Source of the DNA: a virus
Virus record (IMG/VR): IMGVR_UViG_3300044699_000197
Coordinates: 1 to 26,597 of that record
Reading direction: 5' to 3' (one strand)
DNA: 26,597 nt
Part shown: positions 8,761-26,597 of the stretch, piece by piece
Numbering within the stretch: the stretch's first letter is position 1
Layout: the number at the start of each line of letters is the position of its first letter
Translations under genes and position numbers: made by a program
Notes under the pieces: model-generated
Database searches by the model: none
Told to the model about the DNA's origin: nothing
The model's input: only the letters and a program-made list of their open reading frames with translations

Positions 8761-10334
8761 TGGCCCGTCAGTCCTCACTCGCCAAGGTTGTCCGTCGCGT
8801 CAGCGACCAGACCACGCTGCCCGCGCCGGTCGGGGGGCTGAACGCGCTCAACTCGCTGGCGGAGATGCCGCCGATCCAAGCCATCGAGATGGTCAACCTG
8901 TTCCCGCAGCAGTTCGGGGTGCGGGTGCGCAAAGGCTGGTACAAGCACGCCACCGGACTCCCGGCGCAGGTCGAGTCGCTGTTCACCTACGCGCCGGTGT
9001 CCGGCACGCAGAAGCTGTTTGCGGTGTCGCAGTCCAAGCTGTACGACGTGACCGCGCAGGGTGCGGTGGGCGCACCGCTGCTGGTTGGGTTCATCAACAG
9101 TCGGTGGCAGCACCAGATGATGAACAACGTGTTCGGCAGTTGGCTGTCGATGGTGAACGGCTTCGACTTGCCGCAGAAGTACAACGGAACGGCGTGGTCG
9201 AATCAGGCGATGACGCCCGAGGCGGGCGAAACGCTGGACATCCGCAACCTGATTAGCGTCACGCTGTCGCACCGCCGCCTGTGGTACGTCGAGAAGAACA
9301 GCGGCAACGCGTGGTATCTCGACGTTGACGCCATCGAAGGCGTGCTTGACCCGCTTCGGCGTCGGTGAAGTGTTCAAGCAGGGCGGCGCGCTGCGCGAGA
9401 TCATCACATGGTCGGTGGACAGCGGCAGCGGCATGCGCGACCAGACCATCTTCATCTCGTCGCTCGGTGACGTGGTGGTGTACCAAGGCTTCGACCCTGA
9501 CGACAGCCGCCAACTGGACACTGGTCGGCGTCTACCGCTGCGGCGCGCCCCATCGGGCAACGCTGTGCGATCCGCTTCGGCTCCGACGTTCTCATCATCA
9601 ACGAGGACGGTGTGCTGCCTCTGACCGCGATCCTCGGGCAGTCCAAGGCGCTGCTCGGCGAGCCGCTGTCGAACATCATCCAGCAGCGACTGAGTGAGGA
9701 CACGTCCACGCTGAAGGAACTGTTCGGCTGGGAGTTGCAGCTTATCGACCGCCACTCGCTGCTGTTGCTCAACGTGCCCGACCCCCGCGGCCCGCGCCAG
9801 TACGTCATGAACACGGTGACGCAGGCGTGGACGCAGTTCTACGGCTACCTCGGTCTGTGTCTCGAGAAATTCAACGAGGAGTTCTACTACGGCGCCAACG
9901 GATACGTCGGCGCCGGATGGCGCAACGAAGTCGATGACATGCAGCCGGACGGCAGCGGGCTGGCGATCAGCGCCAAGTGCCTGCAAGCGTACAGCTTCTT
10001 CGGCACGCCCGCGTTGCAGAAGCACTGGACGATGTGCCGTCCGATCTTCAACGGCGTGAACCGTCCGTTGGTGTTCATCGGCATGAACACCGACTTCGAC
10101 ATCGAAGACGGCACGCCGCCGCTGTCGGAGTTGGAAGTCATCGCCGACGTGGCGATCTGGGACGTGGCGATCTGGGACGACGGACACTGGTCCGCAGCGC
10201 GGCAGGTGTACAAGGATTGGTACGGCTTGAACGACATCGGCTTTGCCGGTGCGGTGTATCTCAAGATGCAGACGCGCGCAGAGACTTTCTGGGTCAGCAC
10301 CGATTACGTCTTCGAATCCGGTGGCGTGCTGTGA
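8760..10334 (+). CDS. Tail/head-completion protein, P22 gp10-like (frameshifted)
   Basis: About 523 residues when extra bases near 9346 (T), 9510 (C) and 9548-9551 (C) are removed. It starts MARQSSLAKVVRRVSDQTTL, then PAPVGGLNALNSLAEMPP, and has MVNLFPQQFGVRVRKGW, LFAVSQSKLYDVTAQG and GFDPDDSRNWTLVGVYRCG. The repeated aromatic beta pattern (RQYVMNTVTQAWTQF, EFYYGANGYVGAGW) suggests a beta-propeller. Such proteins plug or stabilise the head-tail junction in short-tailed phages. It overlaps the gene before by one base and the gene after by four. A 15-base tandem duplication at 10146-10175 adds an extra VAIWD. Confidence 0.75.
10146..10175 (+). repeat. 15-base perfect tandem duplication inside a tail gene
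   Basis: GACGTGGCGATCTGG occurs twice head to tail (10146-10160 and 10161-10175), producing the protein sequence DVAIWDVAIWDD. The frame is kept. It may be a real in-frame duplication in a surface loop or an assembly artefact. Confidence 0.9.
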
Positions 10335-10799
10335 GGCAAATCGCCATCAACTGCGAGGACTTGGCGGCGCCGTTCATGGAAACGCACTGCCACGCGCACG
10401 GCGCGTTCACTGCGGGCCGCGCCATCGCGCTGCTCGACGTGGACGACGAGGAGCAGACCGCGCGCATGATCGCCTGCGTGCTGGTTCGATTCGTGGAACG
10501 GCGCCAACGTGAACATGCACGTCGCGGCGCTGCCCGGTCGGCGCTGGATGACCCGCGACTTCCTGTACACGGTGTTCGACTATCCGTTCCGGGTGTGCGG
10601 CGTGCGCCGGATCACCGGGCTGGTGTCGTCTACCAACTTCGATGCGCGCCGCTTCGACGAGCACATCGGCTTCACGCTGGAAGCGACACTGAAGGACGCG
10701 GCACCGGACGGCGACCTGCTGGTGTACGCGATGTTCAAACAGGACTGCAAGTGGCTCAACCTGCGGCGTGGGCTGCCACCGATACTCGGAGGTCACTAA
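10331..10799 (+). CDS. GNAT-family acetyltransferase (one frameshift)
   Basis: About 155 residues from GTG 10331, which overlaps the previous stop (GTGA). An extra T at 10485-10486 breaks the frame; without it the sequence reads IACVLVDSWNGANVNMHVAA. The second half is typical of the GNAT fold: DFLYTVFDYPFRVCGVRRIT, then GLVSSTNFDARRFDEHIGF and EATLKDAAPDGD, with the VRRITGLV strand and NxxARRFxExIGF helix that hold acetyl-CoA. The substrate is unknown. Such proteins occur among tail genes of several podoviruses and may modify virion or host proteins. It couples to the next gene by a TAATG overlap. Confidence 0.75.
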
Positions 10800-13110: not shown

Positions 13111-13838
13111 TGTTCGACCGCCGACGACAAGGTGGTGTTGCAGTTCTCGGGCGGGAAGGATTCGCTCGCCTGCTTGTACCTGCTGCGCGAGCATTGGGAC
13201 CGGCTCAGGCGTGGTGTGGTGCGACACCGGCGATGCGCTGCCAGAAACGCATGCGCAGATGGAGGAGATCAGGAAGCTGGTGCGGACGTTCGTCGCCGTG
13301 AAAAGCAACCAACCGGCGCAGATCGCGCGCTGCGGTCCTCCCGCCGACGTGGTGGCGGTGTGGAGTACGCCCGGCGGCCGTCAGATGCGGGCGGACAATC
13401 CGCTGCCCCCGGTGCAGGCGCCGTTCGACTGCTGCAAGGAGAACATCTGGATGCCGATGCACCGGGCCTGCACGTCGCTCGGTGCAACGGTCATCGTCCG
13501 TGGGCAACGGGCGGACGAACGGATCAAGTCACCGATCCGCAGCGGCACCATCTACAACGGCGTGAAGTACCTGTTCCCGTTGGAGGATTGGACCGAGGAC
13601 CAAGGTGCGCGGCTTCCTGCTGTCGCACAACGTACCGCTGCCGCCGCATTACGCGTACTTCAACTCGTCGCTCGACTGCGGGCACTGCACCGGCTACTTG
13701 TCCGAGAACGTGGGTCGCATGCGCTACCTGCGCGAGCACCACCCCGACGTTCACGCCGAGGTCGAGCAGCGGCTGGCGCGGGTCATGCTCGGTGCGGCCA
13801 CTGAGTTGCAGCACATCGTCCAAGCGATGAAGGAATAG
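13107..13838 (+). CDS. PAPS reductase-like ATP-pyrophosphatase (frameshifted)
   Basis: About 242 residues after removal of extra bases near 13118, 13204 and 13604. The start region reads MMFDADDKVVLQF followed by SGGKDS at residues 14-19, the ATP-pyrophosphatase loop of the CysH/PAPS reductase superfamily. Then come SGVVWCDTGDALPETHAQME, FDCCKENIWMPMH, VIVRGQRADERIKSP and LFPLEDWTEDQVRGFL. Near the end SSLDCGHCTGY gives a CxxC pair. The family transfers sulfur or activates a substrate by adenylation; the substrate here is unknown. The start ATG overlaps the previous stop. It is cargo rather than an obvious structural gene. Confidence 0.82.
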
Positions 13839-21945: not shown

Positions 21946-21973
21946 AAAAAGGGGGCGCCATCGCGGCGCCCCC
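21946..21973 (-). terminator. Minus-strand terminator at the convergent junction
   Basis: GGGGGCGCC (21951-21959) pairs with GGCGCCCCC (21965-21973) around ATCGC. On the minus strand the hairpin is followed by five T (AAAAA at 21946-21950 on the plus strand), giving a canonical terminator for the PEP-CTERM transcript. On the plus strand there is no T-run after the stem, so it can stop late transcripts only weakly. Confidence 0.85.
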
Positions 21974-21994
21974 TGTCTGCGTGTGGCAGACGCG

Positions 21995-22708
21995 TTACGC
22001 GCGCCGACGCAGGAAGCCAAGCCCCAGCAGTCCGATCCCCACCAGCGCCAGCGTGCCGGGCTCCGGCACCGCCTGCGGGATCAGCAGCGTTTGCGAGCGA
22101 CCGACGATGGTCGGCTCCTGCCCGACGATGCCGTTCCACGCCGCGAACGTACCGGACGTGCCCAGCGACATGCTGAACAGACCGGGCGACGTGAACGGAC
22201 CGTTGCTGTTGAACGCGAACGCATCGGCCAGCGTGGTCGCAACGTCCGCGAACGTGGCGAGTTGCAGGCCCGGCAGGTCGAGCGGGTTGTCGGCGCCTTG
22301 CTGGTTAGCGGGGTCGGCGTAGAACGACAGGTTGATGGTCGAGCCGACGGCGTTCTGGAAGGTGCCGCTGCCGCTGGCATCGAAGCCGTTGGCCGGTCCC
22401 TCGAAGTCGATCCCGCTGATGGCGAGGATGACCGTGCGCGCCGCTTGCGTCAGGTTGACGATCTGGAAGCTGGACGTGTTGAGGAAGTTCAGCCCGCCCG
22501 CGAACGCGATCTGCGAGGAACCAACAACGCGCACGCCGTTGATCGTCTGATCGGCAATTGACAGTTGGTTGGGCGCGAGGTTGGTGTCGCAGGCTTGCTG
22601 GTCGGCGCAGTTGAACAGCACGCCGTTCACGTCCGCGGACAGTTGCAGGACCGCCGAGGCAGGCGCGGCGAGGGCCGCGAGCGCGAGGGCGAGGAACAGT
22701 TTCTTCAT
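21995..22708 (-). CDS. PEP-CTERM sorting domain protein
   Basis: Intact, 237 residues from the ATG at 22708; the longer open frame upstream is ignored because AAAGGGG (22718-22724) precedes this ATG and a signal peptide follows (MKKLFLALALAALAAPASA). The body is beta-rich and Asn/Gly-rich with two Cys (FNCADQQACDTN). The last 25 residues form the classic sorting signal: VPEPG, a hydrophobic helix LALVGIGLLGLGFL, then Arg-Arg-Arg-Ala. Exosortase (EpsH) recognises such tails and links export to exopolysaccharide. No exosortase is in the window, so host enzyme would be needed. Its presence in a phage is unusual; a cell-surface change in infected or lysogenic hosts is an inference. Confidence 0.85.
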   Translation of the reverse strand: MKKLFLALALAALAAPASAVLQLSADVNGVLFNCADQQACDTNLAPNQLSIADQTINGVRVVGSSQIAFAGGLNFLNTSSFQIVNLTQAARTVILAISGIDFEGPANGFDASGSGTFQNAVGSTINLSFYADPANQQGADNPLDLPGLQLATFADVATTLADAFAFNSNGPFTSPGLFSMSLGTSGTFAAWNGIVGQEPTIVGRSQTLLIPQAVPEPGTLALVGIGLLGLGFLRRRA

Positions 22709-22726
22709 GGTGTCGATCCCCTTTAC

Positions 22727-22748
22727 AAAACCGGGTGAATTCCCGGCT
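22727..22748 (-). terminator. Weak terminator or attenuator hairpin before the PEP-CTERM gene
   Basis: On the minus strand AGCCGGG (22748-22742) pairs with CCCGGTT (22735-22729), including one G-T pair, around a 6-base loop AATTCA. Four T (22730-22727) overlap the 3' end of the stem. It lies between the DUF1508-like stop and the PEP-CTERM ribosome site. It could end the upstream message or tune the downstream gene. Confidence 0.5.
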
Positions 22749-22778
22749 TTCGCCAACATCGACGCAAGCACCGTGCCA

Positions 22779-23006
22779 CTACGCCGCCTGTTTTTCGGCC
22801 TCGGCAATGACGCGCTCGGTGTAGAACTTGCGCGACATTGCCTTGGCGAACGCAGCCACTGCGTTCTCCGCGTTGCGCCGCGACGTATAGCCCGCCGCCG
22901 GACACCCGGCCAGTAGCCGTCCGTTGCTGCCGTTCACTTGCCAGTACCACTGGCTCCCCACCCGCCAGTAAGTGACCACGTTCTTGCGTTCCTTTGCGGC
23001 TGCCAT
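22779..23006 (-). CDS. DUF1508-like small protein
   Basis: Intact, 75 residues, MAAAKERKNVVTYWRVGSQW, then YWQVNGSNGRLLAGCPAAGY and TSRRNAENAVAAFAKA. The pattern WxWxVxxxNGxxLAxCxxxGYxSxxxAExAV is that of DUF1508 (YegP-like) domains, which usually come as one or two repeats; here there is a single copy plus a helical tail. The function of the family is unknown. GGAG lies upstream of the ATG, and a good promoter lies about 30 bases further upstream. Confidence 0.7.
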   Translation of the reverse strand: MAAAKERKNVVTYWRVGSQWYWQVNGSNGRLLAGCPAAGYTSRRNAENAVAAFAKAMSRKFYTERVIAEAEKQAA

Positions 23007-25196: not shown

Positions 25197-26597
25197 CTAG
25201 GGTTGGACAGTCTCCGCAACCACAACATCTTGGGGTTGACGTTTCAGTGCGTTGAGGAAATCTTTTTGCGAACGATCACGCTGCGCCAACGTACGCGCCA
25301 CTGCTTCCTCGATACTGTCGGCCACCACGAAGGTGTGAACGAACACTCGTTCGTGCGGATTGCCGTGCCGCCATACGCGCGCCGTCGCTTGCTCGTCGAA
25401 TTCCAAGTTCCAGTTCGGGCCGAACCAGACGATGTGCTGTGCTTGTCCTTGCAGGTTCAACCCATGACCCGCGCTCGCCGGATGCGCGAGCAGAACGGAC
25501 AACTGTCCGTTGTTGAATTCGTCGCAGATCGCGTCGGCCTCTCTATCGCTGATGTCCGCACCCAAATCTTTCGCCTGCGGAAACAGTGACTTCAATCTAT
25601 TACGGTCCGCGATGAACTCGTACAGGATCAGCACCGGGTTGCCTTGCAGATCGTCCACGAAATCTTTGATCGCTTCGATCTTGGCGTCGTGGATGGTGAC
25701 GTAGCTATGGTCCGGGTTGTACAGGAAGCCGTTGGCGATCTGGCGCAGCTTGCCGCCCAGCACCGCCGCGTTGGGCGCGGTGATGTCCTGTCCGTTGATG
25801 CAGGATGCTGAAGTCGCGCTCCATGCGGTCGTAGATGCCGCGCGCCGCGGTTCCAACTCCACCGGGATCACGTTGCGGAACAGCTTCGGCATGTCCATGT
25901 GATCGACTGGCGTCCTCGCGCAGCACCAGCGGCTTGATCTTCTCGTTGATGTGCTTCTCGGCGCCGGGGATCAGTTGCCAATCGCTGTACGTCCTGCCCA
26001 GCGCGGCGTCGTAGAAATACTGGTTGCGGTAGTGCGTGATGTAGCGACCCAGCGCGCCGCCCATGTCGAGGATGAACGCTTGCGACCACAGGTTTCTCGT
26101 AGTTCTTCGGCTTCGGCGTGGCGGTGAGGATGATGCGGCGCTTGAACGTGTGCAGCACCGTGCGGATGTTGCGGAAGCGCTGGCTGCTGTGAGTGCGGAA
26201 GTAGATGCTCTCGTCGATCACCAGCACGTCCGCGCCCAGCTTCTTCCACAGGTCGTTCTTGGTCAGCCAATCCACGCCCTCCGGCGTGACCACGCAGATG
26301 TCGGCCGTCGTCCGTTCCAGCACTTCCATCTTCTTCGGCCCGTGCAGCACGTCCATAGTGAGGCCGTGGAAGTCGGTCCACTTGAGTCGTTCCTTCGGCC
26401 ACACCAGCCGCGCCGGACGCCGCGGGTGCGACCACCACCGCGCGCTTCAGCATCCCCTTCAGCTTGAGCGCGGCGATCGTCGCCAGCACCACCGACGTCT
26501 TGCCGCAGCCCGGCGACCAGAACAAGGCCGCGTTCGAGTTCTGAAGGAGAAACTTCACGCCTTCGATGTGGTACGACTTCGGCGTCCAGCGTTGCAT
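25197..26597 (-). CDS. SNF2/DEAD-like helicase (frameshifted)
   Basis: About 465 residues when five breaks are corrected (extra bases near 26413, 26094, 25904 and 25801; a lost base near 25847). The start ATG is the last triplet of the window, so a longer N-terminus cannot be excluded, although MQRWTPKSYHIEGVKFLLQN is a natural beginning. Motifs: Walker A SPGCGKTS, motif II VLVIDESIYFR, motif III ILTATPKPKNYENLW, then FILDMGGALGRYITHYRNQY, a helicase C-terminal segment with GHGLNLQGQAQHIVWFGPNW and motif VI EQATARVWRHGNP. Phage SNF2-like helicases of this compact type probably remodel or unwind DNA during replication or recombination. It ends 67 bases before the primase-helicase start. Confidence 0.85.

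Follow-up and report, generated by a model that had tools for sequence, protein, structure and literature searches.

Among the viral records of IMG/VR, a stretch of 26,597 nucleotides (IMGVR_UViG_3300044699_000197, positions 1 to 26,597, hereafter the window) carries an intact gene for a PEP-CTERM protein, which raises the question of what a phage gains from a protein with a bacterial surface-sorting tag. The gene, named vPEP1 here, is probably a mobile moron that encodes a substrate of the host exosortase and alters the interaction of the infected cell and its surroundings with the phage and with neighbors. The features of the gene and its flanks are as follows.

21950..21974, minus strand: intrinsic terminator directly 3' of vPEP1 (11-bp stem, T-run), fold -29.1 kcal/mol including flank, z -4.8
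21995..22708, minus strand: vPEP1, phage PEP-CTERM protein of 237 amino acids, recognized by an intact frame, profile matches, a structural model, and selection
22001..22072, minus strand: PEP-CTERM sorting tag (VPEPG, transmembrane helix, RRR), PF07589 at residues 213-235, six-frame scan at 22004-22072
22589..22609, minus strand: Cys34 and Cys40 in the motif CxDQxACDTN, invariant in 30 aligned sequences
22652..22708, minus strand: predicted Sec-type signal peptide, residues 1-19 (KK, hydrophobic core, ASA), from sequence pattern, homologue conservation, and an AlphaFold helix at residues 2-12
22711..22727, plus strand: putative PrsR enhancer (motif 1) TGTCGATCCCCTTTACA, PWM score 19.5 bits with the window left out of training
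22763..22778, minus strand: sigma-54 (-24/-12) element TGGCACGGTGCTTGCG, spanning -70 to -55 relative to the ATG and differing from the consensus used at one position

The translation of vPEP1 (22708 to 21995, minus strand) starts with MKKLFLALALAALAAPASA, continues with VLQLS, and ends with QAVPEPGTLALVGIGLLGLGFLRRRA at the stop codon. Its layout is MKK, a hydrophobic core and ASA, followed by a beta-rich body and by VPEPGTLALVGIGLLGLGFLRRRA at the extreme C-terminal end. Pattern and conservation predict the N-terminal signal peptide that is expected of a PEP-CTERM protein. The C-terminal tag is matched by Pfam PF07589 (30.2 bits, E = 4e-7, residues 213-235, cut-off 20.7) and by NCBIfam TIGR02595 (25.1 bits, cut-off 16), and both matches end one or two residues before the stop codon. 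In a six-frame scan vPEP1 was the single PEP-CTERM match in the window record, and no match was found in 14 control genomes. The AlphaFold model, based on 30 homologues (mean pLDDT 85.8), consists of a helix at residues 2-12, approximately 13 strands between residues 22 and 211 and a C-terminal helix at residues 218-236, and suggests that the body is a beta-sandwich. Profile matches and model thus bear out the signal peptide, beta-rich body, hydrophobic helix, and Arg cluster that a preliminary description had read from the DNA. Fold matches were broad and weak (TM about 0.3-0.5) and included Bd1399, CBM61 (TM 0.50 by target length), and tail-fiber domains; the weak matches to carbohydrate-binding modules give only a hint that vPEP1 might bind carbohydrate. 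Across 30 aligned sequences the Glu-Pro of the PEP motif, one Gly in the helix and the two Cys are invariant, the latter probably representing a disulfide or a fold motif. The dN/dS ratio between homologues (0.12-0.39) indicates that the gene, tag included, is under purifying selection, and together with the invariant residues it excludes a chance frame or a pseudogene.

Relatives of vPEP1 were identified in at least 46 further IMG/VR records, where they are about 37-93% identical and are spread over phage backbones of several unrelated kinds; almost every one carries the tag. Scans of IMG/VR with the vPEP1 protein and alignments yielded 36 of these records, and a profile search of all fetched loci, among them those retrieved independently by their sorting tag, added approximately ten. 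An all-against-all comparison split the loci into several unrelated gene neighborhoods with a GC content from 48 to 69%. Phage genes near vPEP1 encode a tail tube (L003), a terminase (L024), a tape measure (L015), a DNA polymerase (L016), tail fibers (L017), and a portal (L035, identified by tblastn against phage portals). The window also encodes a portal, a major capsid protein and a VapE-type helicase; its capsid protein has 61% identity to the counterpart in Stenotrophomonas phage BUCT555, in which no relative of vPEP1 was found. Two sister phages (L004 and L005) have kept vPEP1 between the same neighbors as in the window, and a third record (L002) carries it at 83% DNA identity on a different backbone. 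A chimeric assembly join at 21950-23000 was therefore rejected. No convincing homologue was found in cultured phages or plasmids. None was confirmed in 85,000 species genomes either, with patterns that match only 35 out of 51 known members and 0 out of 10 independently found ones, so distant bacterial relatives may exist. A query with the 31-aa tail gave no matches, probably because this low-complexity sequence was filtered.

The contig probably contains frameshift errors outside vPEP1, because an SNF2-type helicase (25197-26597) that is intact in L004 (469 aa) is split across several frames and the frame of the terminase (1-834) appears to be interrupted. Frames at 13132-13838 that start with MVLQFSGGKDSL resemble a PAPS-reductase-type protein and are likewise frameshifted. 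At 10509-10799 the window matches an Acyl-CoA N-acyltransferase profile (phrog_4470) which PHROGs classes as a moron/auxiliary gene.

The location of vPEP1 suggests a gene that moves between phages. In the lineage of the window (L004, L005, L006, and L010) it lies at the junction of the structural and the replication operons, in either orientation. Between the window and L002 the protein is 93% identical over 192 amino acids, and of the other genes that the two share across the full 56.7-kb L002 record the best reaches 56%. The alignable DNA spans the terminator and extends from the end of a gene for a 65-aa protein to the start codon of vPEP1. The contrast in identity and the either-way insertion of the cassette at the operon junction argue that vPEP1 is a horizontally moving phage accessory gene (moron). 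The 65-aa protein, which is the left neighbor in the window, is predicted to form two helices and has no PHROG match. A position beside the lysis genes, as initially proposed, did not hold up: no recognizable lysis gene adjoins vPEP1 in the window, where the sole match of lysis type is an amidase-like profile at 9612-10331.

The upstream region links vPEP1 to a known bacterial regulon. PEP-CTERM genes of Proteobacteria are preceded by a 17-nt motif with the 3' end TTTACA and then a sigma-54 site, at a spacing of 62.8 +/- 10.6 nt (minimum 32), and the motif has been attributed to PrsR (Haft 2006, PMC1569441). When the region from -90 to -30 of the non-redundant vPEP1 members was scored, sigma-54 sites with a score of at least 17 were present in 15 out of 35 members compared with 4 out of 193 intergenic controls (p = 8e-11). 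A good site is missing from about half of the family. The site of the window shares the best score of the family (20 of 21) and is the only match with one mismatch in the window. TTTACA is the commonest hexamer upstream of the sigma-54 sites (12 out of 16), as part of a phage motif 1 that approximates [CTA]G[TA]CG-N5-6-CTTTACA. Motif 1 and a sigma-54 site occur jointly in 11 out of 35 members, with motif 1 preceding the sigma-54 site by 32-92 nt, but in only 1 out of 631 other phage genes (p = 2e-14; mean of 0.03 in shuffles). This test was shaped by the data, in that the motif was noticed and then counted, and motif 1 is also enriched at sites outside the training set: among non-training matches of at least 16 bits, 15 distinct ones fall in the 98 kb around PEP genes and 4 in the other 1.33 Mb, a 51-fold difference. 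As in the PrsK/PrsR regulon, the phage motif has 17 nt, ends in TTTACA and is followed by -24 GG and -12 GC; it differs in its spacers of 41-64 nt, on the short side of the published range. These spacers form two groups separated by one helical turn, at 41-44 nt (mainly near 41-42) and at 50-52 nt (Rayleigh p about 1e-4). A further difference is an unusual variant in the window, where motif 1 is inverted relative to vPEP1, overlaps the ribosome-binding site, adjoins the start codon, and follows the sigma-54 site after a gap of 35 nt, an arrangement otherwise seen only in L006. A scan for sigma-70 promoters found none, and a leader hairpin at 22709-22760 was not significant (z -1.65). With motif 1 taken as a putative PrsR enhancer, an assignment made from the published motif text, many vPEP1 genes look as if they were controlled by a copy of the bacterial PEP-CTERM regulon promoter (PrsR/sigma-54). 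One further record carries three motif-1 copies (L068:12944-13126) at most 300 nt upstream of its PEP-CTERM gene, on the strand opposite to that gene.

No exosortase was found in any of 87 PEP-bearing viral records (37 and 50 scanned), so sorting must fall to the host. A tyrosine integrase was present in 1 out of 31 records of the first set and 7 out of 50 of the second, and no serine resolvase scored over the cut-off in 23 records; the records may be incomplete, although several span 40-100 kb. The near lack of integrase and resolvase suggests that the PEP-CTERM trait is apparently one of mainly virulent phages and unlike classical lysogenic conversion, in which a moron would be carried by temperate phages.

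The vPEP1 gene is often accompanied by further PEP-CTERM genes. PF07589 was matched in 35 out of 37 vPEP1 records, with two or more matches in 17 of the 35. About half of the first 37 records contain a second, unrelated PEP-CTERM gene directly 3' of vPEP1, often overlapping it by stop-start codons and with a body of one of several unrelated types. Three PEP genes follow one another in one record (L044), and tandem arrays of two or three were observed on viral contigs at L044:3390-5494, L101:3709-5105, and L066:3063-4560. A narrow sorting-tag pattern retrieved 89 stretches. Among them is a second viral family, named vPEP2 here, which comprises 33 loci within L040-L113 (e.g., L102:4608-5234). 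Its signal peptide is followed by an FGQ motif, and motif 1 plus the sigma-54 promoter is also present in a few of its members. Profile comparison detected no homology between the bodies of vPEP1 and vPEP2.

Two known systems are informative for comparison. With the PepA-type exosortase substrates of bacteria (NF033554; Zoogloea and Aquincola), vPEP1 shares a signal peptide, the PEP-CTERM tail, a small secreted body, a sigma-54 promoter with a TGGCAC -24 element and a single-gene unit with its own terminator; the RpoN-dependent pepA promoter has been mapped as TGGCAC/CTGCTT (PMC9850573). Unlike these substrates it is phage-borne, no relative in a bacterial genome was confirmed with the patterns used, and its body is no member of NF033554, the flocculation PepA profile reaching 39.2 bits over residues 167-236 against a curated cut-off of 80 bits. 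The Ltp lipoprotein of Streptococcus thermophilus phage TP-J34 (PMC3952083) similarly forms a separate accessory unit for a surface-targeted protein. Such surface or exclusion morons differ from vPEP1, which would use exosortase sorting and a sigma-54 promoter of a host regulon, and most of its carriers lack an integrase.

The suggestion in the preliminary description that the host exosortase receives a substrate from the phage is thus supported by dozens of records on unrelated backbones, by the selected tag, by the absence of exosortase from the 87 records and by the regulon promoter elements; it is these cis elements that point to a host exosortase and to PrsR. In the proposed mechanism, the phage would infect an exopolysaccharide-making Proteobacterium whose RpoN and PrsK/PrsR switch vPEP1 on. 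The protein would cross the inner membrane by Sec and be held there by its C-terminal helix until the host exosortase (EpsH/XrtA) cuts it at the PEP motif, after which it would join the matrix or the outer surface. There it might shield against competing phages or keep the infected cell and the progeny in the floc, and the second, variable PEP-CTERM gene directly 3' might diversify the coat. When PepA is overproduced in Aquincola, exopolysaccharide is bound to the cells and flocs form again (PMC9850573); by analogy vPEP1 would alter matrix binding. A biofilm change or a block of re-infection, both raised at the outset, would be plausible outcomes. As to the benefit, exclusion of competitors or receptor shielding is tentatively put forward, retention in flocs is a possibility of some weight, and a benefit outside all those considered in this study seems improbable. 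On balance, we lean toward a wider reading in which mostly virulent phages carry widespread, mobile exosortase-substrate genes on copies of the host PrsR/sigma-54 promoter, so that a coat is made on the exopolysaccharide schedule of the host and remodels the matrix around infected cells.

An alternative that we consider rather unlikely is that vPEP1 acts as a decoy that competes with host PEP-CTERM proteins for exosortase or export, thinning or loosening the matrix and allowing progeny to spread and adsorb. The shared tag and regulon promoter would ensure that it is made exactly when the host substrates are, and the phages encode no exosortase, but for a pure decoy there would be no need of a body of 190 residues that is conserved and confidently folded, with invariant Cys and many other invariant residues, nor of a further PEP gene whose body differs. 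There is a slim chance that vPEP1 is instead a virion or lysis component, that is, a membrane-anchored late protein for decoration, adsorption or envelope disruption with the PEP-like tail as a mere anchor. It lies among late genes in several phages (between capsid and tail-tube genes in L003, before the portal in L035 and L036) and near tail-fiber, LamG-like or beta-helix genes, and its weak fold matches include phage tail proteins; however, the pairing of a signal peptide with a cleavable-type tag does not resemble virion proteins, Glu-Pro would not stay invariant in a generic anchor, and its own sigma-54 promoter and terminator set vPEP1 apart from late operons. That the gene is host DNA from bacterial contamination or chimeric assembly, as might be thought for an otherwise bacterial trait on a linear 26.6-kb metagenomic fragment, is hardly credible given its fixed neighbors in L004 and L005, its presence on unrelated backbones, a species-genome scan of limited recall that confirmed no relative, and the lack of exosortase in every record scanned.

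A search of mainly open-access papers brought up no published account of phage-encoded exosortase substrates. If vPEP1 is such a substrate, viruses would plug into PEP-CTERM/exosortase sorting by both tag and promoter, and the conflict between phages and matrix in soils and activated sludge would become testable. As for hosts, the promoter copies predict Proteobacteria that have PrsK/PrsR, RpoN, and exosortase, and exosortase sorting could be studied cleanly with the conserved substrates of these phages.

Beside the PEP cassette, a gene for a protein of approximately 385 amino acids (cluster 6) was considered as an integrase and rejected, its sequence resembling a beta-helix adsorption protein. 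This beta-helix-like protein is encoded close to the cassette in two lineages (L023:11765-12913 and L013:11714-12892), has no PHROG match, and is possibly a tailspike or a polysaccharide-active protein.
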